NCBI GenBank assembly: GCA_028874365.1
Contig: JAPPJZ010000003.1
Coordinates: 1-55,670 of the forward strand
Length of the DNA stretch: 55,670 bases
Reading direction: 5' to 3'
DNA from: Chloroflexota bacterium
GTDB taxonomy: Bacteria > Chloroflexota > Dehalococcoidia > Bin125
The position numbers and the translations under genes are program-made. A model generated the notes under the pieces. That model was given only the letters and a program-made list of their open reading frames with translations, made no database searches and had not been told where the DNA came from. This document shows, one piece after another, positions 24,236 through 41,626 of this stretch. Each line of letters begins with the position of its first letter. Position 1 is the first letter of the stretch.

Positions 24236-25468
24236 CTAGCGGCTGCCCCGCAGTCGCGGGTCGAGCACGTCGCGGAGGGCGTCGCCCAGGACGTTGAAGC
24301 CGAACACGAGCGAGCTCAAGGCCAGGCCGGCCCAGAGCGACGTCCAGGGCGAATAGACGATGAACTGGCGGCCATCGGCAATCATCTTGCCCCAGGAGAC
24401 ATCCAGCGTGCCCAGGCCGAGGAAGCTAAGCGCCGCCTCGGCGAGGATGAAGGCGCCGATGGTGATCGAGAAAATCACGATCAGCGGCGCGAAGAGATTG
24501 GGCAGAATGTGGAAGATCATGATTCGACCGGATGACGCGCCGATCGTTCGGGCCGCCTCGACGTACGGCATCTCGCGAATTTGAATCACGCTGCCGCGCA
24601 CAATGCGATTCGTAGGCGCGACGCCGAGCACCGAGAGGGCGAGCGTGACCCATAGCGCCGAGGGGTCAGTCAACGACGCGATCAGCAACAGGAACACGAT
24701 CGGTGGGTACGACTGAATCGCATCCATGATGCGATTCACCGTCAGGTCGACGGTTCCACCCAGGGAACCGGCGACCAACCCGATGATCGTGCCGACGCCG
24801 ACGCCGATCAACGTGGCGAAGAACCCGATGTACAGCGACAGCCTCGCGCCCTCGGTCACGCGGGAAAAGAGATCGTGTCCAGCCCGATCAGTACCGAGCC
24901 AATGCTTGCTTGATGGTCCCTGCAGTGAGGCGGCGGTTAGCGGATTGTCGGTGCCCGTGGCGAGCAGCGCATCGATGTCGTGGATGGTGCCGCTACGAAT
25001 CTCAATCTGTTCCTCGTCGATCAACGTCTCAAGCAGGGTCCTGGCCTCAATCTGCTGGAGCGCGTAGTCGACCATCTCATGTGCAACGCCCTGATCGATA
25101 GCCGCCGATCCGTAAATCTCCGGGTCCGAAACAAGCTCGCGTAGCTCGCCATCCGAAACGTCCTCAGCCAGGCCATCCAACGCATTGGCGAGCTTGTCAT
25201 CCGCATAGCTCACGGAAGCGATCTCGAAGACGTCTCGCGAGTCGTAGCGACCGATCCCCATCCAGCCGCCACCGTCGCCCACGGTACCGACAGCGATGAT
25301 GCTCCAGAAGAAGACCAGCAGCACGCCGGCCGCGCCGAGCCGCTTTTGACTCATGAAGTCGGCGAACCAGCGGATACTGCCGCGCAGCCCACCGGACTCG
25401 TCAACCCGCAGGCCCTCCGACGCCGCGAATTCCTCGATCGATCCCGCGTCGGCCGTTGGCTCGCTCAT
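24236..25468 (-). CDS. ABC transporter permease, DppC/OppC type, with enlarged loop (cassette 1)
   Basis: A 410-residue inner-membrane permease of the dipeptide/oligopeptide type. After a 40-residue cytoplasmic head comes TM1 (about 44-64), then an unusual acidic, helix-rich extracytoplasmic segment of about 120 residues (67-188). The conserved HWLGTDRAGHDLFSRVTEGARLSLYIGF and the remaining TM helices follow. The EAA coupling motif is EAARTIGASSGRIMIFHILPN, and the end is FNVLGDALRDVLDPRLRG. Typical DppC proteins are about 300 residues with a much shorter first loop. It follows its DppB partner by 18 nt. No ATPase gene is adjacent. Confidence 0.9.
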   Translation of the reverse strand: MSEPTADAGSIEEFAASEGLRVDESGGLRGSIRWFADFMSQKRLGAAGVLLVFFWSIIAVGTVGDGGGWMGIGRYDSRDVFEIASVSYADDKLANALDGLAEDVSDGELRELVSDPEIYGSAAIDQGVAHEMVDYALQQIEARTLLETLIDEEQIEIRSGTIHDIDALLATGTDNPLTAASLQGPSSKHWLGTDRAGHDLFSRVTEGARLSLYIGFFATLIGVGVGTIIGLVAGSLGGTVDLTVNRIMDAIQSYPPIVFLLLIASLTDPSALWVTLALSVLGVAPTNRIVRGSVIQIREMPYVEAARTIGASSGRIMIFHILPNLFAPLIVIFSITIGAFILAEAALSFLGLGTLDVSWGKMIADGRQFIVYSPWTSLWAGLALSSLVFGFNVLGDALRDVLDPRLRGSR

Positions 25469-25486: not shown

Positions 25487-26968
25487 CTACGCATAGCGGA
25501 TGCGCGGATCGATGAGCGCATAGCTGATGTCGATGATGATGTTGACGACGATCACGAACAGGGCGAGGAAGAAGACCATCGTGGCAATGACCGGCGTATC
25601 GGCCTGGTAGATGCGCTGCAGCAGCGCCAGGCCGACACCGGGGATGTTGAACAACACCTCGAGGATGATGTTGCCGCCAACCAACGCAGCCACCTGCAGT
25701 CCGAACACGCTGAGCACCGGCACCAGGGCATTACGGAACGCGTGCCTTCGAATGACCTGTCGTTCGCGGAGCCCTTTCGACCATGCGGTGCGCACGTAGT
25801 CCTGTCGCAACACCTCCAGCAATTCAGAGCGGGTGATGCGCATGAGTCCTGCTCCGGCGGCTATGCCGCCGGCCACCGCGGGGATCGTATAGAGGGCGAA
25901 GAACCCCGGAACCGAGGTAAAGATGCTTCGCGCCTCCTCCTCAGCCAACGGAATCGACCACAAACCGCCTTCGAACAGCGAGCCCGGCGAGACCACGAAG
26001 ATCAGCATGGTCGCGACCCAGAACGAGGGCGCGGCGAGAGCGAAGATTGCAAAGCCGCGCAAGAGGTAGTCGGGCAGCCGGTCCTGGCGCATCGCGGAGA
26101 ACACGCCGACCGGTAGCGCAACCACGATGGCCACGATCAGCGCGTACACGTTGAGGTGGAGCGTGCGCGGGAGCGTGCGCAGGAAGATATCCATCGACGG
26201 TTCGTTCGTCTGGAACGACGGTCGGAACTTGAGCCGAATCGTGTCCCAGATGAACTCCACGTATTGAATCCCGAGCGGCTTGTCGAGCCCGAGACGATTC
26301 TTGACCGACGACTCTGTAATTTCACGGGTTGGCGCAATGATCGTGGATCCCGGCAACAATGGCGTGTCCGCGGTCAGTTCCCCGTCGGGGTTCGACGGTG
26401 TGCCGACGAGGTTGACATTCAGATAGTCCTCGGGCGTGACCCGGTTGACGTGGGCAAGCTCGTTGATGGTGGTGCTGTCACGCAGTTTCAGCGTGGTGCC
26501 GGCCTGAGCAAAGGGCTCTCCAGCGAAGGTCGCGAAGTCGACGCTCGGATTGCGCTCGATCAATAGCGCGACTCCCTGGTCGACATCTTCGGGAAGCGCA
26601 AGCCGCTCCCGTCTGGCGATGACTGACAACAACTGGCCGTCAATGACGATGATGCTGGAGCCGGGAATCAGCTCGCTGTCGCGCTTGACTCTCGGATTCA
26701 GAGCGAGAATCTCTTCTGGCGCCACTCCATAGAAGAGCGCCAGCGAGTCGACGCTGTCACCAGCCACCACGCGATGCAGTGTCCGCTCGATCTCGACCTC
26801 GCCGATGATATCCGCCGGCTGAGTCGTCGCTCCGGAGGCTTCGAGATTAGAAAGCTTGATGGTGACGTAGTCGCCAGGCAGCAGGTTCACTCCGAGGAAG
26901 AGCAGCGAAATCACCAACCACAGCGTCGGTATCACGAGCAAGAGGCGGCGGATCAGATACTTCTGCAT
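25487..26968 (-). CDS. ABC transporter permease, DppB/OppB type, with inserted LysM-like domains (cassette 1)
   Basis: A 493-residue permease. Residues 1-40 are the standard DppB start (TM1, LLPGDYVT). Residues 62-215 are an insertion not found in ordinary DppB. It contains a LysM-like unit at about 65-110 (HRVVAGDSVDSLALFYGVAPEEILALNP, ending PGSSIIV) and a degenerate second unit at about 157-213 (TTINELAHVNRVTPEDYLNVN, ending PGSTIIAP). Normal permease sequence resumes at NRLGLDKPLGIQYVEFIWD, with TM helices from about 273 and an EAA-loop segment in TRSELLEVLRQDYVRTAWSKGL. LysM normally binds peptidoglycan or chitin-type glycans outside the cell, and the loop faces outside. It lies between its lipoprotein binder and the DppC gene. 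Confidence 0.9.
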   Translation of the reverse strand: MQKYLIRRLLLVIPTLWLVISLLFLGVNLLPGDYVTIKLSNLEASGATTQPADIIGEVEIERTLHRVVAGDSVDSLALFYGVAPEEILALNPRVKRDSELIPGSSIIVIDGQLLSVIARRERLALPEDVDQGVALLIERNPSVDFATFAGEPFAQAGTTLKLRDSTTINELAHVNRVTPEDYLNVNLVGTPSNPDGELTADTPLLPGSTIIAPTREITESSVKNRLGLDKPLGIQYVEFIWDTIRLKFRPSFQTNEPSMDIFLRTLPRTLHLNVYALIVAIVVALPVGVFSAMRQDRLPDYLLRGFAIFALAAPSFWVATMLIFVVSPGSLFEGGLWSIPLAEEEARSIFTSVPGFFALYTIPAVAGGIAAGAGLMRITRSELLEVLRQDYVRTAWSKGLRERQVIRRHAFRNALVPVLSVFGLQVAALVGGNIILEVLFNIPGVGLALLQRIYQADTPVIATMVFFLALFVIVVNIIIDISYALIDPRIRYA

Positions 26969-27073: not shown

Positions 27074-29113
27074 CTAGGCCTGGAATTGCGGGTGGTTCGT
27101 GTCGAGCCAGGTCTCGTCGTGCTTGTGCGAGTCGTGCGCGAACTGCCAGGTGTTCTCGTCACGGTTGACGTACGGCCACCAGATGGTCGGCACAACGCCG
27201 TTCATCACACCGAACCAGCTGAAGATGCCGTCCAGACCGTGATCGCTGTTGGGGTACCCACCGCCTTCGTCGACGCCGAGCCCGATCCGCTGCACATTGC
27301 GCGCCATGTCGCGGCGCTTCTCCGTGTCGAGCGTGACGGTCATCTCGTCGATGATGTCTTCGACCGGCTGGTAGTTGTACTGCGTCACGTTGGAGGCGCC
27401 GCCGCGCTTGAGCGCGAGACCGAACTGCGCGGTCGGGTCGAGGTCGGCCGGTGGATTCGTCCAGGTCGGCGCGCGGCCGGGGAAGGTCTTGTTGTCGAAG
27501 CGGTCCTGCATCACCGTGTAGGGCTGCAAGTCGAGCTCGACGTTGAATCCCACCGCCTCGCTGTACATGTTGCGAGTGGTCTCCGAGACACCCGGGTATG
27601 TTGTCTCCCAAATGTCGGGGATGTAAATCGTCACCGTCCGATCGGTGTCGAAGCCTGAGGCGGCGATCAACTCACGGCAGAGCTGAATGTCGGCCTCGCG
27701 GTCGATCCGGTAGCCCGGATACTGGCGCAGCTCGTCGGCCGGGATCGTCCAGTAGGTCGAGAACCAGGGGCAGTAGTGCGTGCCGGACGGCTTCGCCGCG
27801 CCCAGATAGACCGCGTCAATCAACAGGTCGCGGTCGACCGCGACATGCATCGCGTAGGCGAAGCGCCGGTCAAGGTACGGGTTGCCCAGACCGTCGGAGC
27901 CTTCCCAGCCCGGCTCGTAGGTACCGGTCACGGTCACGATCGTGTAGCCAAATGCGCCTTCGGCGACCGGGTGGTCGGGGAAGTCGCTGGTCATTTCCTC
28001 GACCTGCACCGATGACAGCGGGAATCCGCCAATGTCGATCTGCTGGCCGCGATAAGCGGCGTCAACGGCGGTCGGGTCGGTCAGGTTGACGAAGTCGACC
28101 GCGTCGGGGTACGGCAACTGCTGACCGTCGGCCCCGTTCTTCCAGTAGTTCGGGTTGCGCTCGAGGTAGGTGCCGATGTCAGGGTCGTAGCTGATCGGGA
28201 TGAACGGCCCGGAACCTGATGAGAGCTCGATGTTGGCCGTCTCGTCACGCCAGCGGCTCCCGAACTCCTGGATGCCTTCGGGCGAAGTAAACCACGAGAA
28301 CGGCCGCAAGATCGTGCCACCCAGGTAGGTAGAGTCGGGGCCGTCAGTCCTGGCGATGAAGGTCTGCTCGTCGGGAGCTTCCTTGGTCGCGGTCTTGCGG
28401 AAGGCGTCCTGACCACGGAACCGGGCGTCGGGGTTGCCGTCGGCATCGAGTGCAGCGATTTGGCGGTCGAAGTTGATGTCGATGTCCTGTGCGGTGACCA
28501 GTCGACCACCTTCGGTCGGATACTGGTCCCACCAACTCGCTCCGCGGTCGATATTGAAGATGTAGGTCTCGCCGTCCGGCTGCTCCGGCAGGGACGCGAT
28601 ATCCGACTCCATGATCCCCTTCTCTTTGTTTGCCCAGCGGATGAGGTAGTTCATGTAGAACCCCATCCAGTAGACGGTGGGACCAAAGACACCGCGGTGC
28701 GGGTCGAAGAAATCGTGGGTGGCAGCCGGCGTGGAGAACTTCAGCGTGCCGCCGTATGTGCGTAGCGGAGCGGCAGCCTGCTGCTGTTGTTGCTGCTGCG
28801 CCTGGGCGACAGTCTGCTCTTCCTGCTGCTCAGCCTGCTGAGCGGCCTGGTCGGCTTGCTGCTCTTGCTGCTCCTGCTGCATGGCCTGCTGCTGTTGCTG
28901 CATCGCCTGCTGCTGTTGCTGCATCGCCTGCTGTTGCTGTTGCTGCTGTTGCCGTGTCTGAGCGACGGCCTGTCCGTCGTCATCGTCATCGTCACCGCAG
29001 CCGACGAGCGCGAGACCGGCTGCGCCGACTCCGGCTCGGCCTGATGCGCGCAAGAGAGCACGCCGACTCAAACGATTGCGCTGCATGCGCTGCCAATAGT
29101 TGCGATCGCTCAT
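27074..29113 (-). CDS. ABC substrate-binding lipoprotein, family 5, no. 1
   Basis: A 679-residue extracytoplasmic solute-binding protein of the oligopeptide (SBP_bac_5) type. Start MSDRNYWQ has AAGGAG upstream. The leader has a twin-arginine motif (SRRALLRASG), a hydrophobic stretch and lipobox LVGC, so it is probably Tat-exported and lipidated. After Cys-Gly come six Asp, then about 65 residues almost entirely Gln with Ala, Met and Glu, likely a flexible tether. The binding domain starts near TYGGTLKFSTPA and includes FDPHRGVFGPT. First gene of cassette 1 (binder, DppB, DppC). The ligand is unknown; family 5 members carry peptides, nickel or glycans. Confidence 0.9.
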   Translation of the reverse strand: MSDRNYWQRMQRNRLSRRALLRASGRAGVGAAGLALVGCGDDDDDDGQAVAQTRQQQQQQQQAMQQQQQAMQQQQQAMQQEQQEQQADQAAQQAEQQEEQTVAQAQQQQQQQAAAPLRTYGGTLKFSTPAATHDFFDPHRGVFGPTVYWMGFYMNYLIRWANKEKGIMESDIASLPEQPDGETYIFNIDRGASWWDQYPTEGGRLVTAQDIDINFDRQIAALDADGNPDARFRGQDAFRKTATKEAPDEQTFIARTDGPDSTYLGGTILRPFSWFTSPEGIQEFGSRWRDETANIELSSGSGPFIPISYDPDIGTYLERNPNYWKNGADGQQLPYPDAVDFVNLTDPTAVDAAYRGQQIDIGGFPLSSVQVEEMTSDFPDHPVAEGAFGYTIVTVTGTYEPGWEGSDGLGNPYLDRRFAYAMHVAVDRDLLIDAVYLGAAKPSGTHYCPWFSTYWTIPADELRQYPGYRIDREADIQLCRELIAASGFDTDRTVTIYIPDIWETTYPGVSETTRNMYSEAVGFNVELDLQPYTVMQDRFDNKTFPGRAPTWTNPPADLDPTAQFGLALKRGGASNVTQYNYQPVEDIIDEMTVTLDTEKRRDMARNVQRIGLGVDEGGGYPNSDHGLDGIFSWFGVMNGVVPTIWWPYVNRDENTWQFAHDSHKHDETWLDTNHPQFQA

Positions 29114-29162
29114 CGGTCTCACTCCTTTTCAGCGCTTCTGGAGACGCGCCGATAGTCGGATA

Positions 29163-29191: not shown

Positions 29192-29254
29192 ATTCGCTCA
29201 ACTCCATTGGGCCGAGCGACCAGATAGAACCACTGCGACGCGTCGAGAGTCGGC

Positions 29255-30499
29255 CTAGCGGGTGCCTCGAAGGCGAGGGTCAAAGACGTCTCGCAGGGCG
29301 TCTCCCAATACGTTGAAGCCGAAGACCAGGCTGGTCAGGGCGAGACCGGCGAAGAGCGATGTCCACGGCGACTGGACGATGAATTGGCGTCCGTCAGCGA
29401 TCATCTTGCCCCAGGACACATCCAGGGTGCCCAGCCCGAGGAAGCTCAGCGCCGCCTCGGCAAGGATAAAAGCGCCAATCGTGATCGAGAAGATCACGAT
29501 TAGCGGAGCAACGATGTTGGGCAGGATGTGCAGCATCATGATCCGCGCGTTGGTGGCGCCAACCGTGCGTGCTGCTTCGACGAATGGCATCTCGCGCAGA
29601 GCGATCACGGCACCGCGCACAATTCGCTGTACCGGCGCGATCGCCAGAACAGAGAGCGCGAGTGTCACCCAGATTGCCGAGGGCTCGGTGACCGAGCGCA
29701 GCAGCAGCAGCAGCACGATCGGCGGGAACGAGAGCAGCGCGTCGACCAGGCGGCTGATCGCCAAGTCGATGTTGCCGCCTAGCCCTCCGGCGACCAGACC
29801 GAGAGCGGTTCCGGCGACGACGCCGATCAGGGTCGCGAAGAAGCCGATGTAGAGCGATAGCCTCGCGCCTTCGGTGACCCGCGAGAACAGGTCGTGTCCG
29901 GCCCGGTCGGTGCCAAACCAATGCTTGGCCGACGGTCCCTGAAGCGAGGCGGTCGTCAGCGGCGTGTTGGTTCCTGTCGCGAGCAGGTCGTCGACATCGG
30001 TGATCGTGCCATTGGCGATTTCGATCTGGGCGGGATCGATGTCCTCTGCCAGGTGAGTCAGCAACGTGCCGGTCTCAATCAGGCCTTCGACGTAGGCGAG
30101 CATGTCGTCCAGTACGCCGGACTCTTGGGCCAGCTCTCCGTAGACCTCCGGGGCGAGCAACAGCTCCCGCAGCCTCGCGTCGGAGATGTCGGCCGGCTCA
30201 CCGTCCAGGGCGTTGGCCATCTTGTCGTCGGCGAAGCTGGGATTGGCGATCTTGAAGACATCTTGCGAGTCGTAGCGCCCGATTCCGAGCCAACCGCCGC
30301 CCGAGCCGACCGTGCCGACGGCGATGATCGACCAGACAACGACCAACACGAGCCCGGCCGCGCCCAAGGGTTTGGTCCGGAAGAAGGAAAGCAGCGCGCT
30401 GCTGACCAGTTGGAGCGTGGTGCGCTCTTCAACGCGCAGACCCTGAGCCTGCGCGAACTCTTCCAGTTCCCTGGCGGTCGTCTGACGTTCGTCGCTCAT
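29255..30499 (-). CDS. ABC transporter permease, DppC/OppC type, with enlarged loop (cassette 2)
   Basis: A 414-residue permease paralogous to the one at 24236-25468. Start is the ATG of MSDERQTTARELEEFAQ with GGGAG upstream; the much longer open frame covers the DppB tail in another frame and is rejected. Order: cytoplasmic head, TM1 (VWSIIAVGTVGSGGGWLGIGRYDSQDVF), an extracytoplasmic segment of about 120 residues rich in acidic residues and Leu, then HWFGTDRAGHDLFSRVTEGARLS and the TM core. The EAA motif is EAARTVGATNARIMMLHILPN. The loop diverges from cassette 1 much more than the membrane core does. Confidence 0.9.
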   Translation of the reverse strand: MSDERQTTARELEEFAQAQGLRVEERTTLQLVSSALLSFFRTKPLGAAGLVLVVVWSIIAVGTVGSGGGWLGIGRYDSQDVFKIANPSFADDKMANALDGEPADISDARLRELLLAPEVYGELAQESGVLDDMLAYVEGLIETGTLLTHLAEDIDPAQIEIANGTITDVDDLLATGTNTPLTTASLQGPSAKHWFGTDRAGHDLFSRVTEGARLSLYIGFFATLIGVVAGTALGLVAGGLGGNIDLAISRLVDALLSFPPIVLLLLLRSVTEPSAIWVTLALSVLAIAPVQRIVRGAVIALREMPFVEAARTVGATNARIMMLHILPNIVAPLIVIFSITIGAFILAEAALSFLGLGTLDVSWGKMIADGRQFIVQSPWTSLFAGLALTSLVFGFNVLGDALRDVFDPRLRGTR

Positions 30500-30522
30500 A
30501 GTGCGTCTCCCGCTCGACCCGG

Positions 30523-32148
30523 TTACGTGTATCGAATACGCGGATCGATCACCGCGTAGGAGATGTCGATGATGATGTTGACGACAATGATGAAGAGCGC
30601 GAAGAAGAACACCATCGTCTGGACGACCGGCAGGTCCGCCTGGTTGATCCGCTGAATGAGCAGCAGGCCGATGCCGGGGATGTTGAAGAGCAGCTCGAGG
30701 ATGATGTTGCCCCCGACGAGCGCAGCGATCTGAAGGCCGAGCACGCTCATCACGTTGACCAGCGCGTTGCGCATCGCATGGCGTCGGATGACCGTGCGCT
30801 CGCGCAGACCCTTGGACCATGCGGTCCGCACGTAGTCCTGGCGCAGGACCTCGAGCAGCTCGGACCTCGTGATGCGCATCAGGCCCGCTCCCGCCGCAAT
30901 CCCTCCGGCGATGGCCGGAATCGAATAGAGCGCCAGCGCGCCGGTGAAGGAGCTAAAGACCGAACGCGCCTCCTCGGACGTCAGCGGGATCGACCAGATG
31001 CCGCTCTCCGAGATACCGCCGGGTGTCACGACGAAGATCAGCATCGTCGCAATCCAGAACGAGGGTGCCGCCAGTGCCAGGATGGCGAAGCCGCGCAGCG
31101 CGTAGTCGAGCGGTCGGTCCTGCCGCATGGCCGAGAGGATCCCGACCGGCAACGCGATGATCAGCGCCACGATCAACGAATACACATTGAGGTGCAGCGT
31201 GCGGGGCAGGGCGCGGAGGAAGATGTCGAGTGAACCCTCCTGGGTCTGGAACGACGGACGGAATTTGAGCCGCACCGTCTCCCAGAGGAAATCGATGTAT
31301 TGCGTGCCCAGCGGCTTGTCGATCCCAAGCCGATTCCGGATGTTGGCCTCGGTGATCTTGGTCGTCGGTGTGACGATCTTGTCCGAGGGGATCACGATCT
31401 CCTTGCCCGCCTCGAGTGGTTCAGCCGCATCGATTCCGCGGTTCGCATCGGTCACGTCATCGACGTCGCGCCCGAAGGCGACCGCAATCCCTTCGAGCGT
31501 GTCGCCCTCCTCGGCGATCACCAGCGAGGTTGGCACCAACTGGGTATCGGCAGTCAAGTTGCCATCGGGATTGCTCGCGCTGCCGGTCGGATTGACGGCC
31601 AGGATGTCGCCGGCCTCAATACGGTTGACGTGCGCCAACTCCTCCAACGTGAGGCTGGTGCGGATCGTCAGGATCGTTCCAGCCTCCGCGTATGGTTTCC
31701 CCTGATACAAGGGAAAGTCGATATCAGGATTGCGATCGATCAGCAGCTGAACGCCCTGCTGGGCTTCTTCAGGCAGTGATACCTTCTCCGCGACCGCAAT
31801 CGTCTCCAGCAACCGGCCAGGGATCACCGCCACTCTGGTACCGGGCCGTAAATCGGCCGAGGTATCGAGGTCGGGATTCGTCGCGAGGAGCTCCGAGACC
31901 GTGGTGCTGTTGTCCGCGGCGATCGACTCCAGAGTGTCGCCAGAGATCACACGGTGCAACGTCTCCTCGACTTCGATGTAACCAGTAATCTCTGATTCTC
32001 GCTGCTCTGCACCCTGGTTCTCCAGGTTCGAGAGCTTGCGCGTGACGAAGTCGCCCGGCAGGGCGCGAAGCGCAAGGAAGAGCAGCGAGACAACCAACCA
32101 CAGCGTCGGGATCACCAGGAGTATGCGCTGGAGAAGGTATCGCTGCAT
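30523..32148 (-). CDS. ABC transporter permease, DppB/OppB type, with three LysM-like units (cassette 2)
   Basis: A 541-residue DppB-type permease, about 200 residues longer than usual. The excess lies between TM1 (1-32) and the resumption NRLGIDKPLGTQYIDFLWE near 272. The insertion carries LysM-like unit 1 at about 64-110 (HRVISGDTLESIAADNSTTVSELLATNP), unit 2 at about 157-212 (LTLEELAHVNRIEAGDILAVNP), and unit 3 at about 209-256 (EEGDTLEGIAVAFGRDVDDVTDAN, ending AGKEIVIP). Cassette 1's homologue lacks unit 3. The C-terminal half has the usual helices and cytoplasmic loop. It follows lipoprotein 2 by 56 nt and precedes its DppC by 23 nt. Confidence 0.9.
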   Translation of the reverse strand: MQRYLLQRILLVIPTLWLVVSLLFLALRALPGDFVTRKLSNLENQGAEQRESEITGYIEVEETLHRVISGDTLESIAADNSTTVSELLATNPDLDTSADLRPGTRVAVIPGRLLETIAVAEKVSLPEEAQQGVQLLIDRNPDIDFPLYQGKPYAEAGTILTIRTSLTLEELAHVNRIEAGDILAVNPTGSASNPDGNLTADTQLVPTSLVIAEEGDTLEGIAVAFGRDVDDVTDANRGIDAAEPLEAGKEIVIPSDKIVTPTTKITEANIRNRLGIDKPLGTQYIDFLWETVRLKFRPSFQTQEGSLDIFLRALPRTLHLNVYSLIVALIIALPVGILSAMRQDRPLDYALRGFAILALAAPSFWIATMLIFVVTPGGISESGIWSIPLTSEEARSVFSSFTGALALYSIPAIAGGIAAGAGLMRITRSELLEVLRQDYVRTAWSKGLRERTVIRRHAMRNALVNVMSVLGLQIAALVGGNIILELLFNIPGIGLLLIQRINQADLPVVQTMVFFFALFIIVVNIIIDISYAVIDPRIRYT

Positions 32149-32204
32149 CGCTGCTCCCGATCAGTTGACTACAAGCGCCACTGAGGTTCGTGCGAAAGTG
32201 CACA

Positions 32205-34220
32205 TTAGGCGGGGTAATCCGGGTGGTTCAGGTCGAGCCACGCGTCGTCGTACCGGTGTGACGCGTGGGCGAACTGCAAGGTGTCTTCGGGGCGCTGGAC
32301 GTACGGCCACCAGAGCGCCGGCGAGATGCCGTTCATCACGGCGGGGGCGAAGCCAAGACCCTCGACGCCGTGATCCGGGTGAGTGCCGAGCAAGATGCGC
32401 TGCGCCTCGAAGGCCATGTCTCGGCGCTGCTCCTGGTCGAGCGTCACTCGCATCGTGTTAGCAATGTCGGTCATCGGCTGGAAGTCATAGGACAGGTTGT
32501 TGGTCGCGCCGCCCGGCACGAGGTTCTGCAGATATGACGTCGTCGGGTCGAGGTCATCCGGCGGGTTGGTCCACTGCGGTCCGCCGCCGGGGTATGTCTT
32601 CGAGACCCAACGCTGCAGCAGCACGGTATAGGGCTGGATGTTGAACTCGATCTCGATCCCCAGCGCCTCCTCGTACATGTTCTTCTCGGTCTCGAGGATG
32701 CCCTGGTACGTCTGCTCCCAAATGTCGGGCGCATAGAGGATCATCTTGCGATCCTTGTCGTAGCCCGATGCGTCGAGAGCCGCGCGAGCATCGGCGATGT
32801 CCGCATCGCGGTCGGGCCGATAGCCCGGTGTCGAGAGCAGTTCCTCCTCGGGGATGGCCCAGTACTTGTTAAACCAGGGCGTGTGCTCCTGACCACTGGG
32901 CTTGCCCGACCCGAGGTAGACCGCGTCGATCATCAGGTAGCGATCGACGGCCAGGTGCAGCGCGTAGCAGAATCGGCGATCGAGGTAAGGATTGCCTAGT
33001 CCGTCTTCACCGGGCCAGTCCGGGTTGTAGTTGAAGATGCCGGTGATGATTGTGAAGCCGAATGCGATCTGACCCTGCGGGTGATCGGGGAAATCGGCGC
33101 CGATCGATTCCGCCTGCAAGCTCGACAGCGGGAAGCCGCCAACGTCGATCTCTCCGTTGCGGTAGGCCGTTTCGACGACCGTTGGATCGTCCATACTCGC
33201 AATGCCAATGCCATCCATGTAAGGCAGCGGCTGGCCGTCGGCGCCCATCTTCCAGTAGTCCTCGTTGCGGACCATGTCCACGCCGATGTCGGGGTCATAG
33301 AACGTGGGAATGTAGGGGCCCGTCCCGGACGACAACTCAACGTTGGTCGCCTCGTCGCGCCAGCGATCGCCGAACTCACTGATCGCTTCCGGCGAAGTGA
33401 TCCACGAGAACGGACGCAAGACCGGGCTGCCCAGATAAGTGGCGTCGATGCCATCGGTCTTGGCGATGAATGTCACGTCGTCGGGAGTCTCCATCGCCGC
33501 CGTTTTACGAAATGCCGACGAACCAAGGTAGGTACCGTCCTCGGAACCGCTCGCGTCGACCGCGTCGATCTGACGCTGGAAGTTGGCCTCGATGTCCTGG
33601 GCCGTAACGAGGCGTCCGCCCTCGGTTGGGTACTGATCCCAGTACCGCGCCCCGCGGTCAATCGAGAAGATGTAGGTTTCCGCGTCCGGCGTCTCTGGAA
33701 GCGACGCCACATCGGCCTCGAGGATGCCCTGTTCCTTGTTGCGCCAGCGGATGAGGTAGTTCATGTAGAACCCCATCCAGAACTGGGTAGGCCCGAACAC
33801 GGCTCGGTGAGGATCGAAGTAGTCGTGCGTGCGGGCAGGACTCGAGAAGCGCAATGTGCCGCCACGGGTGATGTTCGACACCGCCGCCTGTTGCTGTTGA
33901 TCGGCGTCGTCAGCCGTTTGCTCCTGCTGATCGGCCTGCTCCGCCTGTTGCGTCGCGGCCGATTCCTGTTGCGCCTGCTGGCCCTGCTGCGCGGCCTGCT
34001 GCTGCATCGCCTGCTGTTGTTGTTGCTGCGCGGCCTGCTGCTGCATCGCCTGCTGTTGTTGCTGCGCGGTTTGCGCGACGCTGTCCTCGTCGTCGTCGCC
34101 TCCGCAGCCAATCAACGCCAGACCGGCGGCGCCCACGCCCGCCCGACCCGACGCTCGTAGCAGAGCGCGCCGGCTCATCCGATTCCGCCTCATGCGTTGC
34201 CAGTAGTTGCGTTCAGCCAT
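32205..34220 (-). CDS. ABC substrate-binding lipoprotein, family 5, no. 2
   Basis: A 671-residue binding protein directly upstream of cassette 2 permeases and therefore their likely partner. Start MAERNYWQ has GGAG upstream; an extended frame to 34445 overlaps the neighbouring gene and is not used. The twin-arginine leader (SRRALLRASG) ends in lipobox LIGC, then GGDDDED and a Gln-rich tether (about 50-125) with repeated AMQQQAAQQ units. The binding domain runs from RGGTLRFSSPARTHDYFDPHRAVFGPT to the C-terminus (HPDYPA). It shares the domain organisation of binding proteins 1, 4 and 5. Confidence 0.9.
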   Translation of the reverse strand: MAERNYWQRMRRNRMSRRALLRASGRAGVGAAGLALIGCGGDDDEDSVAQTAQQQQQAMQQQAAQQQQQQAMQQQAAQQGQQAQQESAATQQAEQADQQEQTADDADQQQQAAVSNITRGGTLRFSSPARTHDYFDPHRAVFGPTQFWMGFYMNYLIRWRNKEQGILEADVASLPETPDAETYIFSIDRGARYWDQYPTEGGRLVTAQDIEANFQRQIDAVDASGSEDGTYLGSSAFRKTAAMETPDDVTFIAKTDGIDATYLGSPVLRPFSWITSPEAISEFGDRWRDEATNVELSSGTGPYIPTFYDPDIGVDMVRNEDYWKMGADGQPLPYMDGIGIASMDDPTVVETAYRNGEIDVGGFPLSSLQAESIGADFPDHPQGQIAFGFTIITGIFNYNPDWPGEDGLGNPYLDRRFCYALHLAVDRYLMIDAVYLGSGKPSGQEHTPWFNKYWAIPEEELLSTPGYRPDRDADIADARAALDASGYDKDRKMILYAPDIWEQTYQGILETEKNMYEEALGIEIEFNIQPYTVLLQRWVSKTYPGGGPQWTNPPDDLDPTTSYLQNLVPGGATNNLSYDFQPMTDIANTMRVTLDQEQRRDMAFEAQRILLGTHPDHGVEGLGFAPAVMNGISPALWWPYVQRPEDTLQFAHASHRYDDAWLDLNHPDYPA

Positions 34221-34325
34221 TTCATGCTCCATCAAGTCAGACATGCGTCGCGCGCGGTTGCGACTTGGCAGAGTGTAAGCGAATTGACGTTGCGGGTGTC
34301 GAGTCCGCAACAGACCAGAGCCGCA

Positions 34326-34368
34326 TCGCCCGGCGCGAACTCCACGTCCGCGGTCGCGCCGGGCGATC
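34326..34368 (-). promoter_or_regulatory. Perfect 14-bp stem-loop after binding-protein gene 3
   Basis: ATCGCCCGGCGCGA (34326-34339) and TCGCGCCGGGCGAT (34355-34368) form a perfect 14-bp stem with a 15-nt loop, 6 nt after the stop of the gene at 34375-36402. There is no U-tract on the minus strand, so it is more likely an mRNA-stabilising or Rho-assisted end than an intrinsic terminator. A candidate promoter for the next gene (TACACT at 34272-34277) lies just downstream. Confidence 0.6.
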
Positions 34369-34374
34369 TCTGGG

Positions 34375-36402
34375 CTACGCCGGGTAGTCCTCGTGGGCGG
34401 TGTCGAGCCACAGCTCCTCGACGATCTTGTGGCCCTGGTGCGCAAACTGGTAGCCGTCGGGAATCACGTGGTACCACGGCCACGCGGCCTCGTTCGAGAC
34501 CGGGTTCATCACGCCCAGACCCGGCGAGAGCGATTCCCAGCCGTAGTCGGGGTGAATACCCAACTGGAGTTGCACCATCTCGTGTCCGAGTGCGCCCTTG
34601 GCCTCGAGGTCGAGCGTGACCTTCATCTCCTCGGCGATCTCGGTCACGCGTGGGTTCTCGTAGCTGTAGAAGTTCGCCGATGCCCCGGGCACTCGACCGT
34701 TGAGCCAGTAGCTGGTCGGGTCGAGGTCGGACGGCGGGTTGGTCCAACAGGGGACCTGACCCTGGAACGTGCCGTCGACCAACCGCTGCAACAGCACGGT
34801 GTACGGGTCGATGCCGATCTCGATGCCGACCCCCATCGCCGACTCATACATGTTCTTTTGGGTCTCGACGATGCCGGGATAGCGCTGCTCCCACACATCG
34901 GGCGCGAACAGGCCGATGGTGCGCCCCTCATCGCGGAACCCGCTGGCGTCCATGAGCTCGTTGACCAGCTGTAGCTCAGCATCGCGATCCGGTCGGAAGC
35001 CGGGGATCTGGGCCATCTCTTCCTGGCTGGGCGACCAGAATGTCGAGAACCAGGGAATTTCTTCCAACACCGATGGCTTGGCCGAACCCAGGTAGACGGT
35101 GTCGATCATCAGGTACCGGTCGGTCGCCACGTGGAACGCGGCCGCGACCCGCCGATCCAGCCAGGGGTTGCCCAGCCCGTCTTCGCCCGGCCAATCGGGG
35201 TTGTAGTTGGTGCGAATCATGATCGTGAATCCGCCGCCGACCGTGTTGCGCTGCATCTGTGGGAAGTCGTTGAGCAGCGACTCCACGCGGCTGATGTTCA
35301 GCCAGGCGCCGTCCAGCTCCTTCGAGCGAACCGCGGTCTCAATCGCCGTTTCGTCGAAGAGGTTGTAGTACTCCATCTTGTCGACATACGGCAACTGCTG
35401 GCCCCACTGGTCGTCCTTCCAGTAGTTCGGGTTGCGGTTGGCGATGAACACCTCGGTCGGCTCATAGCTCTCGGCGATGAACGGGCCGGAGCCGGCGACG
35501 CGCAGGGTGGTCGGGTCGTCGCGCCAGACGTCCGACTCGGTGCCCCACTCTCGGATCCCTTCGGGCGCGGCCATCCATCCGAACGGGCGCAGGAACGTTG
35601 CCGACAGGTACGTCGAGTCGATGCCCTCCGAAGTCGTTCGCAAAGTGAGATCGTCTACCGCTTCGGCCGATGCGATCTTGCGCCAACTTGATAGTCCGAG
35701 GAATGTGCCGTCCTCGGCGCCGGTCGAGTCGACGCCGGCCGTGTTGCGCTCGACGTTGACGACGATGTCCTCGGCCGTGATGTTGCGCCCGCCCTCGGTC
35801 GGATAGGCGTCGTGCCAGGCGGCCCGGGGGTTGATGTTGAAGACGTAGGTCGTCGGATCCGGGATCTCCGGCAGATCGGAGATGTCGGCCTCCATTTCCG
35901 ACTTCTCCTTGTTCTTCCAGCGGATCAGGTTGTTGTAGAGCATCGAGTGCATGAACTGGGTCGGCCCGAACACGCCGCGGTGCGGATCCCAGTAGTCGTG
36001 CGTCTCAATCGTCGACGCGCGGCGCATCGTGCCGCCATAGGTCGGAATCCCGCTCTCAGGGACCTCAGCCGCAGCCTGTTGCTGTTGCTGCTCGTCGGCG
36101 TCGGCAACCGCCTGCTGCTCTTGTTGATCAGCTTGCTGCGCCGCCTGATCGGCCGCCTGCTGCTGTTGTTGCTGCTGCATGGCCTGCTGCTGCTGTTGCT
36201 GCTGGCCCTGCTGCTCCATCGCCTGCTGTTGCTGCTGCTGTTGCTGTCGAACCTGGGCAACACCGTCGTCATCGTCGTCGTCGCCGCAACCGACCAGCGC
36301 GAGGCCCGCCGCCCCTACTCCAGCCCGCCCCGAAGCTCGCAAGAGGGCACGCCGACTCATTCGGTTGCGCCGCATGCGTTGCCAGTAGTTTCGCTCGCTC
36401 AT
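34375..36402 (-). CDS. ABC substrate-binding lipoprotein, family 5, no. 3 (divergent)
   Basis: A 675-residue binding protein with the shared leader (MSERNYWQ, SRRALLRASG, lipobox LVGC, six Asp) and the longest Gln tract of the set (about 50-115). It differs most in the mature domain: HSMLYNNLIRWKNKEK replaces the usual WMGFYMNYLIRW, and the ligand-facing middle third is diverged. This suggests a different ligand but use of the same permeases. AAGGAG precedes the ATG. No permease genes directly follow; a stem-loop separates it from binding protein 2. Confidence 0.9.
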   Translation of the reverse strand: MSERNYWQRMRRNRMSRRALLRASGRAGVGAAGLALVGCGDDDDDDGVAQVRQQQQQQQQAMEQQGQQQQQQQAMQQQQQQQAADQAAQQADQQEQQAVADADEQQQQQAAAEVPESGIPTYGGTMRRASTIETHDYWDPHRGVFGPTQFMHSMLYNNLIRWKNKEKSEMEADISDLPEIPDPTTYVFNINPRAAWHDAYPTEGGRNITAEDIVVNVERNTAGVDSTGAEDGTFLGLSSWRKIASAEAVDDLTLRTTSEGIDSTYLSATFLRPFGWMAAPEGIREWGTESDVWRDDPTTLRVAGSGPFIAESYEPTEVFIANRNPNYWKDDQWGQQLPYVDKMEYYNLFDETAIETAVRSKELDGAWLNISRVESLLNDFPQMQRNTVGGGFTIMIRTNYNPDWPGEDGLGNPWLDRRVAAAFHVATDRYLMIDTVYLGSAKPSVLEEIPWFSTFWSPSQEEMAQIPGFRPDRDAELQLVNELMDASGFRDEGRTIGLFAPDVWEQRYPGIVETQKNMYESAMGVGIEIGIDPYTVLLQRLVDGTFQGQVPCWTNPPSDLDPTSYWLNGRVPGASANFYSYENPRVTEIAEEMKVTLDLEAKGALGHEMVQLQLGIHPDYGWESLSPGLGVMNPVSNEAAWPWYHVIPDGYQFAHQGHKIVEELWLDTAHEDYPA

Positions 36403-36574: not shown

Positions 36575-38587
36575 CTAGGCCGGGTAGTCGGGGTGGTTTA
36601 AGTCGATCCAGGTCTCGTCGTAGCGATGGCTGGCGTGAGCGAACTGCAGGGTGTCCTCGCTGTGGTGGACGAACGGCCACCACAGCACCGGCGAGATACC
36701 GTTCATCACACCGGGGATCGTGGTGATTCCGTCCAGACCGTGATCGGGGTGGGTGCCAAGCAGCAGGCGCTGGGCGTCTTGGGCCATCCCCCAACGCTCT
36801 TCGCGGTCGAGGGTGACGCGCATCTTGTACGCGATCTCGGCCATTGGCGGGTAGTCGTAAGACAGTGTGTTGACCGACCCTTCCGGGGTGAAGAAGTCGT
36901 TGTAGGGCGCAGTCGGGTCGAGTTCGGCGGGCGGGTTGCCCCACTGCGGTCCGCTGCCGGGGTAGGTGCCGTCGACGAAGCGCTGCAGGATGACGGTGTA
37001 CGGCTGCACATCGAACTCGACCTCAAGGTCGAGCGCGTTGCGGTACATGCCGACTTCGGTTTCGAGTACGCCGGGATAGGATGCTTCCCAAAGGTCCGGC
37101 GCGATCATGCGCAGGCCGCGGCTCTTGTCGTAGCCGGAGGCTTCGAGCAGTGCCCGCGCTTCGGCGATGTCGAGGTCGCGGTCGGGGCGGAAGCCGGGGG
37201 TTTGCAGCAGTTCTTCCTCCGGGAGCGCCCAGTACGAGCTGTACCACGGGGTGTCGTGCAGACCGGTCGGCTTGCCTGAACCGAGGTAGACCGTGTCGAT
37301 CATCAGGTACGGGTCAACGGCCATGCCGAGCGCCTTGGCGAAACGTCGGTCGACCCAAGGGTTGCCGAGGCCGTCCTCACCGGGCCAGTCGGCGTTGTAG
37401 TTGACCAGCGTGATAATCGTAAAGCCGAAGGCGATTTGTCCATAGTTGTGGTCGGGGAAGTCTTCGGCGATGCCGTCGGCTTGCAGGGTGGTCAGCGGGA
37501 AGCGCCCGTTGAGGATTTCCTTGCTGCGGTAGGCGGCGTCGACTGTGGTGGGATCCTCCATGTTGGCCAGCGTGACCTCGTCGTAGTAGGGCAGCGGCTG
37601 GCCGTCAACGCCCATTTTCCAGTAGTTGGGGTTGCGCGACATGCCGATCCCGATATCGGGGTCATAGCTGTGGGGGATGAACGGGCCGGTGCCGCTGGAC
37701 AGTTCGAGGTTGCCGGCTTCGTCGCGCCAGCGGTCGCCGAATTCCGAGATCGCTTCGGGCGAGGTGATCCAACTGAAGGGGCGCAGCGGGACACCGAGCC
37801 ACGTGGCGTCGGGCCCGTCGGTCTTGGCGATCCAGGTCTCGTCGTCAGGCACGTCCATCGAGGCGGTGCGGCGGAACGCGCCGGCGGAGAGGTAGGTGCC
37901 GTCGTCGGCGCCCGTGGCGTCTTTGGCCTCGATCTGGCGCTCGTAGTTGACGCGGATGTCTTCGGAGGTCACCAACCGACCGCCTTCGGTCGGATATTGG
38001 TCCCAGAAACGGGCGCCCTGATCGATCTTGAAGATGTAGGTCTCGTCGTCGGGGATTTCTGGCAGCGAGGCGATGTCGGGCTCGGCGATGTCCTGTTCCT
38101 TGTTGCGGTAGCGGATGAGGTAGTTCATGTAGAACCCCATCCAGAACTGCGTCGGACCGAACACCCCGCGGCCGGGATCGAAATAGTCGTGCGTCGCTGC
38201 CGGGGTCGAGAAGGTCAGGTTGCCGCCGCGCACGATCTCCGCGACGGCGGCTTGCTGTTGCTCCTCGGCATCGGCAGCGGACTGCTCCTGTTGGTCGGCC
38301 TGCCCAGCCTGCGATTCCGCAGCGGCCTCCTGTTGCTCCTGACCGCCCTGTTGTTGCATGGCTTGTTGCTGTTGGGCTTGCCCGCCCTGTTGCTGCATCG
38401 CCTGCTGTTGCTGCTGTTGTTGCGCGGCCGCCTGTGCAGCCGACTGCTGGCCGTCGTCGTCATCGTCGCCGCAGCCGACGAGGGCCAATCCCGCTGCGCC
38501 GACCCCGGCCCGACCGGAAGCTCGCAACAAGGCGCGTCGGCTCATCTGCTTGCGCCGCATTCGCTGCCAGTAGTTTCGCTCTGCCAT
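36575..38587 (-). CDS. ABC substrate-binding lipoprotein, family 5, no. 4
   Basis: A 670-residue paralogue. The start is the ATG of MAERNYWQ behind GGAGAGG; ten upstream codons are open but unsupported. The leader (SRRALLRASG) ends in lipobox LVGC, then GDDDDDG and a Gln/Ala-rich tether (about 50-125). The binding domain runs from RGGNLTFSTPAATHDYFDPGRGVFGPT to HPDYPA and is close to numbers 2 and 5. It is one of three binding proteins in this run with no dedicated permeases, so it probably feeds cassette 2 or a transporter elsewhere. Confidence 0.9.
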   Translation of the reverse strand: MAERNYWQRMRRKQMSRRALLRASGRAGVGAAGLALVGCGDDDDDGQQSAAQAAAQQQQQQQAMQQQGGQAQQQQAMQQQGGQEQQEAAAESQAGQADQQEQSAADAEEQQQAAVAEIVRGGNLTFSTPAATHDYFDPGRGVFGPTQFWMGFYMNYLIRYRNKEQDIAEPDIASLPEIPDDETYIFKIDQGARFWDQYPTEGGRLVTSEDIRVNYERQIEAKDATGADDGTYLSAGAFRRTASMDVPDDETWIAKTDGPDATWLGVPLRPFSWITSPEAISEFGDRWRDEAGNLELSSGTGPFIPHSYDPDIGIGMSRNPNYWKMGVDGQPLPYYDEVTLANMEDPTTVDAAYRSKEILNGRFPLTTLQADGIAEDFPDHNYGQIAFGFTIITLVNYNADWPGEDGLGNPWVDRRFAKALGMAVDPYLMIDTVYLGSGKPTGLHDTPWYSSYWALPEEELLQTPGFRPDRDLDIAEARALLEASGYDKSRGLRMIAPDLWEASYPGVLETEVGMYRNALDLEVEFDVQPYTVILQRFVDGTYPGSGPQWGNPPAELDPTAPYNDFFTPEGSVNTLSYDYPPMAEIAYKMRVTLDREERWGMAQDAQRLLLGTHPDHGLDGITTIPGVMNGISPVLWWPFVHHSEDTLQFAHASHRYDETWIDLNHPDYPA

Positions 38588-38678
38588 GGGACCTCTCCTC
38601 GTGTTCGATTCGACCAACCGTCAACTGCAGAATGCTAGGGATATTGGAACGGCTTCGTCGGCGAACAGCACCGAATGC

Positions 38679-40700
38679 CTAGGTCGGGTAGTCGGGATGG
38701 ATCACGTCGAGCCAGGTGTCGTCGTGGCGGTGCGAGTCGTGGGCGAACTGGAGTGAATCCTCGCCGCGATGGACGAACGGCCACCACACTGCCGGTGCGA
38801 TTCCGTTCATGACGCCGGGTGTTGGTGAGATGCCGTCAAGACCGTGGTCGGGGTGCGTGCCCAGAGCGATGCGCTGCGCCTCATGGGCCAGGCCGCGGCG
38901 GGTCTCCTGGTCGACCGTGGTGCGCATCAACTGCACGATCTCTGCCATCGGCTCGTAGTCGTAGTGGAAGTAGTTCCAACTGCCGCCGGGGATGAAGCGG
39001 TTGTGGTAGGCGGTTGTGGGATCGAGCTCGATCGGGGCGTTGGACCATTGTGGTCCCGAGCCCGGGTAACTGCCGTCGATCAATCGTTGCAGGATGACCG
39101 GGAACGGCTCCATCTGGAACTGCACCTCGATGCCCAATGCCTCGGTGTACATGGCGCGCTCGGTCTCGAGGACGCCCGGATATGTGACCTCCCAGAACTC
39201 GGGGGCAATGAGTTTGACCGGACGCTCGATGTCGTAGCCGGATGCGTCGAGCAGTGCTCGAGCCTCTTCGATGTCGGTTTCTCGGTCGGGTCGGAAACCG
39301 GGGACGGTCAGCAGTTCATCCTCGGGGATCGCCCAGTAGCTGTTGTACCAGGGCGTGTCCTCCTGGCCCGTGGGCTTGGCCGAACCGAGGTAGACGGTGT
39401 CGATCATCAGATAGCGATCGACGGCCACGTGCATCGCCTGGCAAAAGCGGCGATCGAGGTAGGGGTTGCCCAGCCCGTCCCAGCCGGGCCAATCGCGGTT
39501 GAAGTTGAACCAGCCGGTGATGATCGGGTAGCCGAAGGGCACGCTGCCGGTCGGATGGTCGGGGAAGTCGGACGAGATGGACTCCACCTGAATCGAGGTG
39601 AGCGGAAAGCCGCCGATCGAGATTTCGCGGCCGCGATAGGCCGTCTCGATCGCGGTGGGATCCTGCATGCTGGCGAACGTCACTTGTTCGAAGTACGGCA
39701 GCGGCAGACCATCGACGCCCAGTTTCCAGAATCCTGGATTGCGTTCGAGTTCGATCCCGATGTCAGGGTCGTACGAGCGCGGGATTGTCATGCCGGTGCC
39801 GCTGGAGAGCTCGATGTTGGTCGGATCGTCCCGCCAGCGGTCGCCGAACGCGGCGATCGCTTCGGGCGAGGTGATCCAACCGAACGGTCCCAGGGGAACG
39901 CCCAACCAGGTGGCGTCGGGACCGTCGGTGCGGGCGATGAATGTCAGGTCGTCGGGCGTGTCCATCGATGCCGTCTTGGCGTAGGAATCACGATGCGGGA
40001 AGGTACCGTCCTCGGCGCCGGTCGCATCTCGGCCGTCGATGTGGCGCTGGAAGTTGAGGCGAATGTCCTCCGATGTGACCGCTCGCCCGCCTTCGGTGGG
40101 GAACCGGTCCCAGAAGCGCGCGCCCTGATCTACACGGAACAGATAGGTCTCTTCATCGGGTGTCTCGGGGAGGCTGCAGATGTCCGCCTCCATGACCGCC
40201 TGCGCCTTGTTGCGCCAGCGAATGGTGTTGTTCATGTAGAACCCCATCCAGTACTGGGTCGTGCCGAACACGGCCCGATGGGGATCGAAGTAGTCATGCG
40301 CGTGGGCGGGAGTGGAGAGGCGTAGGTCACCGCCACGCACGACCTGGGTGACGGCAACCTGCTCTTGCTGCGGCTGGGCAGACTGCGGATCCTGCTCCAG
40401 AGCATTCTGTTGATCGGCCGCAGCCTGTTGCTGGCGCTCGACCTGGTCTGCCTGCTGTTCCGCCTGCTGTTGCTGCTGTTGCGAGGTCGGGCCGTCCGGT
40501 TGTCGAACTCGCGGGCGCGGGGCGGCGGCCTGCTGCGCTTCGGACTGGACGACAACGAGCTCGTCGTTGTCATCGTCGTCGCCGCAACCGACCAAGGCCA
40601 GGCCGGCAACGCCTACGCCTGCACGTCCAGCCGCCCGCAGCAGCGCACGGCGACGCAGGCGTTTGGTGTTCAGCCGCTGCCAGTAGTTGCGATCGTTCAT
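38679..40700 (-). CDS. ABC substrate-binding lipoprotein, family 5, no. 5
   Basis: A 673-residue paralogue and the promoter-proximal gene of the whole minus-strand transporter run. Start is the ATG of MNDRNYWQ with GGAG upstream; the 42-codon upstream extension overlaps the divergent methyltransferase and is rejected. Its leader is the most diverged (LRRRALLRAAG), but keeps two Arg and lipobox LVGC, followed by GDDDDNDE. The tether is mixed (Gln, Ala, Pro, Arg, Glu) instead of nearly pure Gln. The binding domain has AHDYFDPHRAVFGTT and ends HPDYPT. Confidence 0.9.
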   Translation of the reverse strand: MNDRNYWQRLNTKRLRRRALLRAAGRAGVGVAGLALVGCGDDDDNDELVVVQSEAQQAAAPRPRVRQPDGPTSQQQQQQAEQQADQVERQQQAAADQQNALEQDPQSAQPQQEQVAVTQVVRGGDLRLSTPAHAHDYFDPHRAVFGTTQYWMGFYMNNTIRWRNKAQAVMEADICSLPETPDEETYLFRVDQGARFWDRFPTEGGRAVTSEDIRLNFQRHIDGRDATGAEDGTFPHRDSYAKTASMDTPDDLTFIARTDGPDATWLGVPLGPFGWITSPEAIAAFGDRWRDDPTNIELSSGTGMTIPRSYDPDIGIELERNPGFWKLGVDGLPLPYFEQVTFASMQDPTAIETAYRGREISIGGFPLTSIQVESISSDFPDHPTGSVPFGYPIITGWFNFNRDWPGWDGLGNPYLDRRFCQAMHVAVDRYLMIDTVYLGSAKPTGQEDTPWYNSYWAIPEDELLTVPGFRPDRETDIEEARALLDASGYDIERPVKLIAPEFWEVTYPGVLETERAMYTEALGIEVQFQMEPFPVILQRLIDGSYPGSGPQWSNAPIELDPTTAYHNRFIPGGSWNYFHYDYEPMAEIVQLMRTTVDQETRRGLAHEAQRIALGTHPDHGLDGISPTPGVMNGIAPAVWWPFVHRGEDSLQFAHDSHRHDDTWLDVIHPDYPT

Positions 40701-40726
40701 CGCCGGCTCCGGTGGGAAGTTGCGCG

Positions 40727-40732
40727 AGTATA
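40727..40732 (-). promoter_or_regulatory. Putative -10 box upstream of binding-protein gene 5
   Basis: TATACT on the minus strand, 26 nt before the start of binding protein 5, in the 98-bp gap shared with the divergent methyltransferase gene. It is identical to the -10 proposed for the cupin operon. A -35 is not clear. Confidence 0.35.
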
Positions 40733-40798
40733 CGAACTCCGCCGTGCGTCTCCTGTTCGCTCGGATACCGCGATGGGCGAGGCGATTACCCTGAGCCC

Positions 40799-41626
40799 AT
40801 GAGTCAGCAACGTCCACAGCCGCCACCCGATCCCGACGCGATGATCGCCCAGTTGCGCCAGCAGGTGCTTGACGGCTGGGAGAAGGGCGCCGACTTTTTC
40901 GATGAGCGCTGGGGTGATCAGGGAGACGAATTCCACCACGATGTTTTCGCGCCGGCGGCTGAGCAGATGCTCGGTCTCGAGCGGGGAGCCAAGGTGATCG
41001 AGTTCGCTTGCGGCAACGGCGCCTTCGCCCGGCGGCTCGGGCGGGCCGGCATGAGCGTGCTGGCGACCGATCTCTCTCCGTCCCTGATTGCCCACGCCGA
41101 ACGGCGCACCGAAACGATCTCCGATCAAGCGGTGGATGTCAGCTACCAGACCGTCGATGCGACGGACGAGCGCGCCATCCTCAACTGCGGCGGACCGTTC
41201 GATGCGGCCGTCTGCATCATGGGCGTGATGTCGATGCCGCTGCTGCGCCCGATGTTCGGCGGCGCCTGGCGCGTGCTCCGACCGCGCGGAGCGTTCGTCG
41301 TGGTCACCCTGCATCCCGGGTACGCGACCGCCGGATACAAGCTTGCCAAGTCGGAGGAGGAGGGTGAGCCGCACGGTCTGACGATCACCCGCTACCTCTC
41401 GCGCTATGTCACGCATGGCAGGACCAACACGGCGCAGAAGGAGCCGCAGATTTACTTCCACCGATCGATGAGCGAACTGCTGGCGGACGCGTTTGCTTCG
41501 GGCCTGGTACTCGACGGGATGGAGGAGTTGGCCGCTCCGCAGCAGCCGATCGAGGAGGCCAAGCTGATGTGGAACTTCCTGCCGGAAATCCCGATGGCGG
41601 TCGCGCTGCGTTTCCGCCGAGTCTGA
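40799..41626 (+). CDS. Class I SAM-dependent methyltransferase
   Basis: A 275-residue soluble methyltransferase with a Rossmann core. Motif I is VIEFACGNGAFARRLGRAG, followed by VLATDLSPSLIAHAERR (motif II acidic residue). FDAAVCIMGVMSMPLLRPMFGGAWRVLRPRGAFVVVTLHPG covers motifs IV to VI. It belongs to the broad Methyltransf_11/25 type acting on small molecules. The ATG at 40799 is chosen over a longer reading that would run into the divergent lipoprotein promoter. A small membrane protein gene follows 13 nt later. Confidence 0.85.
   Translation: MSQQRPQPPPDPDAMIAQLRQQVLDGWEKGADFFDERWGDQGDEFHHDVFAPAAEQMLGLERGAKVIEFACGNGAFARRLGRAGMSVLATDLSPSLIAHAERRTETISDQAVDVSYQTVDATDERAILNCGGPFDAAVCIMGVMSMPLLRPMFGGAWRVLRPRGAFVVVTLHPGYATAGYKLAKSEEEGEPHGLTITRYLSRYVTHGRTNTAQKEPQIYFHRSMSELLADAFASGLVLDGMEELAAPQQPIEEAKLMWNFLPEIPMAVALRFRRV

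Follow-up and report, generated by a model that had tools for sequence, protein, structure and literature searches.

In the maltose importer, the permease MalF carries a large extracytoplasmic domain (P2) in one of its loops, where it touches the substrate-binding protein (SBP). For peptide importers, the structure of E. coli DppABCDF shows a scoop motif after TM1, made up of alpha1, the scoop loop, and alpha2, that fills the SBP cleft, and salt bridges to DppA are made by E41 and R42 in the scoop loop of DppB; this loop has been proposed to act in releasing and retaining the substrate (PMC12136057). LysM domains are known from proteins such as the endopeptidase P60_tth, in which the V..GD(S/T) positions contact GlcNAc (PMC4356369). 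Here, we describe importer permease genes in a 55,670-nt stretch of DNA (hereafter, the window) from a Chloroflexota bacterium (Dehalococcoidia; Bin125; GCA_028874365.1, contig JAPPJZ010000003.1, positions 1 to 55,670), which belongs to a group of bacteria known solely from metagenome bins. LysM modules in the scoop loop of an importer permease seemingly lack a published description: by titles and abstracts, we found no paper in the open-access literature on LysM inside an ABC permease, which is weak evidence of absence.

Two importer cassettes with enlarged permeases

The window holds two cassettes with the same gene order, namely, at least one SBP_bac_5 lipoprotein gene, followed by a DppB permease and then by a DppC-type partner. 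Their features are as follows:

25487..26968, minus strand: DppB1, a DppB/OppB-type permease of 493 aa with a LysM-bearing scoop insert (Pfam BPD_transp_1 and LysM above cut-offs)
26312..26854, minus strand: scoop insert of DppB1, about residues 39-219, replacing E. coli DppB 39-49 (phmmer alignment to 8z1v_A)
26645..26776, minus strand: LysM1 of DppB1, residues 65-108 (Pfam PF01476; hhalign; AlphaFold2)
26498..26644, minus strand: middle unit of the DppB1 insert, residues 109-157, LysM-like by predicted topology only (AlphaFold2; weak profile match)
26330..26497, minus strand: degenerate LysM-like unit of DppB1, residues 158-213 (hhalign to LysM1; AlphaFold2)
25496..26119, minus strand: BPD_transp_1 membrane core of DppB1 (Pfam)
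24236..25468, minus strand: DppC1, partner permease of 410 aa, which itself carries an insert following TM1 (Pfam; AlphaFold2)
27074..29122, minus strand: SBP_bac_5 lipoprotein adjoining DppB1, with twin-arginine-like signal, lipobox, and Q-rich tether (Pfam; sequence)
30523..32148, minus strand: DppB2, paralogous permease of 541 aa whose insert matches that of DppB1 and has one more clear LysM (Pfam; additional unit by hhalign)
31831-31956 and 31387-31509, minus strand: Pfam LysM stretches of DppB2
29255..30499, minus strand: DppC2, partner permease that carries an insert following TM1 as well; start codon picked by homology (Pfam)
32205..34445, minus strand: SBP_bac_5 lipoprotein of cassette 2; open reading frame limits, true start probably inside (Pfam; sequence)
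34375..36402, minus strand: SBP_bac_5 lipoprotein (Pfam; sequence)
36575..38617, minus strand: SBP_bac_5 lipoprotein (Pfam; sequence)
38679..40826, minus strand: SBP_bac_5 lipoprotein; open reading frame limits, true start probably inside (Pfam; sequence)

A gene for a GPP34 (Golgi phosphoprotein 3-like) protein lies just downstream of DppC1 (window 23361-24014); in many relatives, too, it is found close to the cassette.

The Pfam domain BPD_transp_1 covers residues 284-491 of DppB1 (E 2.5e-38; 132 bits against a cut-off of 26.4), and the cytoplasmic coupling (EAA) loop can be aligned to E. coli DppB through EVLRQDYVRTAWSKGLRERQVIRRHAFRNAL. VIA-align of the DppB1 model gives a Z of 25 to both OppB and DppB, and a Foldseek search with the whole model returns DppB structures at the top, with the LysM structure 4uz2 at an E of about 0.014. 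DppB1 does not reach the cut-off of the NCBIfam DppB/OppB/NikB equivalogs (best Opp2B, 238 bits versus 350), so its assignment is to the family and not to an equivalog. The setting is likewise of the Opp/Dpp type, with a DppC-type partner and an SBP_bac_5 protein encoded alongside; at the level of sequence, DppB1 is a permease of an Opp/Dpp-type ABC importer. No DppD/DppF-type ATPase gene is found alongside on the window contig, and the three oligo_HPY ATPase genes of the whole genome all lie on other contigs (C55, 53489-54974, and C9, 48984-49187). This arrangement is compatible with membership of DppB1 in the Opp/Dpp permease family: the genome, with 19 DppB-type and 31 SBP_bac_5 matches, probably shares ATPases among its importers.

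Both DppC partners also bear an insert of about 90 residues after TM1. That of DppC1 (about residues 77-165; window 24974-25240) is predicted by AlphaFold2 to form helices and a beta hairpin, at pLDDT values up to 86, and a structure search with the whole DppC1 model listed only permeases.

Most SBP_bac_5 lipoproteins of the genome (window 27074-40826; L105-L134) combine a twin-arginine-like signal and a lipobox with an Asp run and, ahead of the binding domain, a long Q-rich tether; being this widespread, the tethers are ruled out as a companion of the LysM insert. Similarly, the cassette SBPs lack R383 and D436 of DppA, the residues that hold the ends of the dipeptide, and this loss is not a specific co-variation with the altered scoop, since both are missing from almost every SBP in the genome. 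The nearest solved relatives of the SBP profile in the PDB are DppA and OppA, and a murein-peptide-binding protein is also matched (E 4e-7); searches of the PDB with single SBPs at E 1e-8 gave no match. A further SBP of the cassette subfamily is encoded on another contig (C39, 1849-2988; 906 bits to the cassette profile).

LysM-like units mapped to the scoop tip

A preliminary description of the window, made from its letters alone, had placed LysM-like domains inside a DppB-type permease and proposed a profile search, a structure prediction, and a survey of permease lengths. Its central claim is borne out: in DppB1, PF01476 matches residues 65-108 (LysM1) at E 1.2e-6 and 28.7 bits, above the curated cut-off of 20.9, and hhalign aligns LysM1 with the LysM domains of the same genome at 97%. 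DppB2 has two Pfam LysM stretches (65.5 bits together), with its extra unit recognized as LysM at 97% (hhalign). PF01476 is matched in 17 of 19 family members, and scanning the B3 paralogues (see below) one by one gave no match to it. The description also counted one clear and one degenerate unit, which correspond to LysM1 and to unit 3 (about 158-213), the latter aligning with LysM1 at 95.6% in hhalign; the middle unit (about 109-157) reaches 78% to LysM1 and <1% to canonical LysM.

The AlphaFold2 model of DppB1, built on a shallow alignment of 30 sequences, shows three consecutive beta-alpha-alpha-beta units at about residues 63-109, 111-155, and 159-212, with pLDDT mostly 78-90 across the insert. 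At 63-109 (pLDDT about 81-87), the order of strands and helices is that of the LysM fold. On the predicted topology, the array of DppB1 is one of three LysM-like units and that of DppB2 one of four. By sequence, LysM1 of DppB1 matches solved LysM domains, such as those of P60_tth (4uz2) and SafA, and LysM1 of DppB2 matches Ecp6 at 5e-7. The ligand loop reads GDS in LysM1 of DppB1 and GDT in DppB2, and units 2 and 3 are without GD(T/S). The V..GD(S/T) positions are retained in LysM1 and mostly in its orthologues as well, with alterations in a few.

The array was originally described as an insertion of ~155 residues between TM1 and the rest of the permease. The location after TM1 stands; its size must be revised, and it falls within the scoop motif. 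In a phmmer alignment to E. coli DppB (8z1v_A), residues 2-38 of DppB1 pair with 2-38 and residues 220-492 with 50-337, such that 11 E. coli residues (39-49) are exchanged for about 181 (about residues 39-219). Because these 11 residues belong to a scoop that enters the SBP cleft in E. coli, the alignment would set the insert at the scoop tip. The flanks of the scoop are retained: a conserved L(S/A)NLE..GA stretch follows alpha1, and TE..(I/V)(K/R)..LG(I/L), the equivalent of alpha2, comes after the end of the insert. By DppB topology, the LysM units should face outward. Both the placement of the insert and its fold family are supported by computation, and with the insert at the scoop tip, simple docking to the wall is no likelier than a function where the SBP docks.

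Distribution and evolution of the insert

A search of 197 genomes of the class gave matches of insert length in 11 of the 12 genomes of the window's genus and in one family neighbor, with the remaining matches spanning mostly TM1 or the alpha2 region. An alignment of the insert searched against 400 genomes across the phylum matched four, all from this genus. A scan of the contigs of 84,980 species, which used patterns from the flanks of the insert and as such finds relatives only and not convergent LysM-permease fusions, returned MAGs titled Dehalococcoidia, Chloroflexi, or Chloroflexota, plus one Thermomicrobiaceae record matched over the alpha2 region only. No relative of the insert was found in viral contigs. 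In a length survey of 121 genomes of the phylum, searched with just the permease core, all DppB-type frames listed besides the window's own two (512 and 545 aa) measure 305-407 aa. The insert is not an assembly artifact, as about a dozen other MAGs have the same architecture and gene order. Judging by isolate names, we believe that several of the MAGs returned by the contig scan come from sponges or corals.

In a tree of permease cores, every insert-bearing permease falls into one clade (support 100/99), and a single origin of the insert followed by duplication is most likely. Repeat number has changed since the extra LysM is present in DppB2 of the window's genus and lacking in DppB2 of the family neighbor. 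Across pairs of B1 orthologues, the dN/dS of the insert is about 0.05-0.26, always above that of the membrane core and well below 1, with synonymous sites near saturation in distant pairs. The insert is under purifying selection. Mean identity within B1 is 67-73% for the insert versus 89% for the core, with LysM1 (67%) among the faster-evolving parts. The length of the insert is near-constant across orthologues, and three paralogous lines keep it.

Some relatives have a third permease pair (B3/C3), which in three of them lies directly downstream of C1 (L071, 12657-15289; L075, 12673-15314; L077, 12654-15211) and is also present in G151 (L062/L063); we found none in the window's own genome. Both B3 and C3 have lost their cytoplasmic coupling loops, C3 of L075 and L063 has no BPD_transp_1 match at all, and the pair is possibly non-transporting. 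B3 nevertheless keeps the scoop insert, which favors an extramembrane role for the insert and, in the case of units 2-3, contact with a protein: compared with B1/B2, identity is 0.43-0.51 in the scoop loop, alpha2, and units 2-3, 0.40 in the core, and 0.26 in LysM1.

Cell wall setting

Peptidoglycan-synthesis genes are present in the genome (3.12 Mb; 96% complete): six frames give eight Mur-ligase matches, of which three lie on contig C21 along with a transpeptidase, and further penicillin-binding proteins are encoded elsewhere. Dehalococcoidia orders 1-9 are reported to retain peptidoglycan genes and orders 10-25, the marine radiation among them, to lack them through loss; Tepidiforma has a periplasm of 40 nm that includes a wall layer of ~20 nm (PMC10284905). 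The genes found here agree with this picture, in that they would be expected in a member of the wall-keeping orders. Among sponge Chloroflexi, LysM (CBM50) was reported only from Caldilineae and Anaerolineae, and SAR202 was without peptidoglycan genes (PMC6306507), whereas this genome, the relatives of which bear the title Dehalococcoidia, has both LysM proteins and peptidoglycan genes. A second LysM membrane protein of the genome is an OafA-type acyltransferase with LysM and a possible SGNH region (L018, 1-2433, on contig C67).

What the array may do

We tentatively favor a dual role, in which the enlarged scoop would touch the docked SBP and, with its canonical LysM units, probably also bind wall glycan that contains GlcNAc. 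Where the SBP docks, the expanded loop would then form an extracytoplasmic platform. The degenerate units and the conserved scoop stem may contact the docked lipoprotein SBP, by analogy with E. coli DppABCDF, and LysM1 (with the extra LysM of DppB2) would bind glycan, most likely the cell's own peptidoglycan, thereby holding the mouth of the importer at the wall. This reading is preferred because the insert sits at the SBP site, because LysM1 and the added LysM of DppB2 are canonical, and because of the B3/C3 pattern; it further draws on the LysM homology, the predicted fold, purifying selection, the retained GlcNAc-contact positions, the peptidoglycan genes, and the single origin and restricted lineage of the insert. 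Counting against it are the fast evolution of LysM1, the altered GD of some orthologues, and a B3 LysM1 that is no longer recognizable. Its reach to the wall is uncertain, given the 40 nm periplasm of Tepidiforma and a DppB1 model that is silent on where the array lies relative to membrane, SBP, and wall. Wall or glycan docking as first proposed in the preliminary description therefore keeps part of its footing, in that the LysM is real, its GD(S/T) loop is kept, peptidoglycan genes are present, and the topology points outward; it overlooked a role at the SBP-docking site, and binding itself is inferred.

A close rival, possible if rather doubtful, dispenses with glycan altogether: the LysM fold would have been recruited for protein-protein contact, gripping the docked SBP or setting its orientation, perhaps with help from the DppC insert, much in the role of MalF P2. 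The position of the insert in an SBP-contacting loop (PMC12136057), the missing GD(T/S) loop of units 2-3, the better conservation of stem, alpha2, and these units than of LysM1 in B3, and the insert in DppC itself all fit such a clamp, which does not need a LysM1 that is canonical in most B1/B2 copies or an additional canonical LysM in DppB2. Should the LysM units instead catch GlcNAc-containing fragments (muropeptides or chito-oligosaccharides) and hand them to the SBP for uptake, their place at the SBP mouth, SBPs without R383 and D436, and the murein-peptide-binding relative would be accounted for. We nonetheless judge this quite unlikely, as the nearest solved SBP relatives are DppA and OppA, the residue loss extends to nearly all SBPs of the genome, and no gene resembling muropeptide- or chitin-degrading ones appears among the Pfam-scanned open reading frames (23-24, 14-23, and 40-48 kb); import of glycan or muropeptides is possible, with less support than either the enlarged scoop or the clamp. 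The earlier suggestion that the transporter senses glycan fragments finds no specific support. That the docking scoop became a glycan-binding array that either fastens the transporter to the cell wall or passes wall-derived fragments to the SBP, with the paralogous pairs of related genomes that lack ATPase coupling acting as non-transporting receptors, is unlikely as a whole. A neutral or decaying insertion without function would account for the higher rate of change in the insert than in the membrane core, but it is very improbable in light of the substitution pattern (dN/dS well below 1), the near-constant length, the retention in three paralogous lines, and the LysM gained in DppB2.

If the favored dual role holds, LysM would gain a place in transport. 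In any case, a natural lineage in which the scoop tip has been swapped for LysM units that are maintained by selection, with one more gained in one paralogue, offers a direct test of how far the scoop loop can be altered and of whether physical attachment of an importer to the wall is possible, and it does so in a wall-making member of a class with reported loss of peptidoglycan genes in orders 10-25 (PMC10284905).

Comparison with known systems

DppB1 shares with DppB/OppB of E. coli and M. tuberculosis its permease family, topology, alignable scoop flanks, and coupling loop, and its cassette shares with those importers a DppC-type partner and SBP_bac_5 neighbors; it departs from them in having ~181 LysM-like residues for 11 at the scoop tip, and the window cassettes differ in the DppC insert and in having no ATPase genes alongside. 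MalF P2 is comparable to the insert in role only, as the MalF family, the loop, and the fold all differ and P2 has no LysM. The L018 acyltransferase resembles DppB1 in being an integral membrane protein that bears LysM, but there the LysM follows the membrane domain and precedes the possible SGNH region rather than lying inside a transport permease. The LysM endopeptidase P60_tth (4uz2/4uz3) has a homologous unit with the same V..GD(S/T) ligand loop (PMC4356369); it is, however, a secreted hydrolase with separate LysM domains, whereas in DppB1 the array occupies a permease loop and two of its three units are degenerate.
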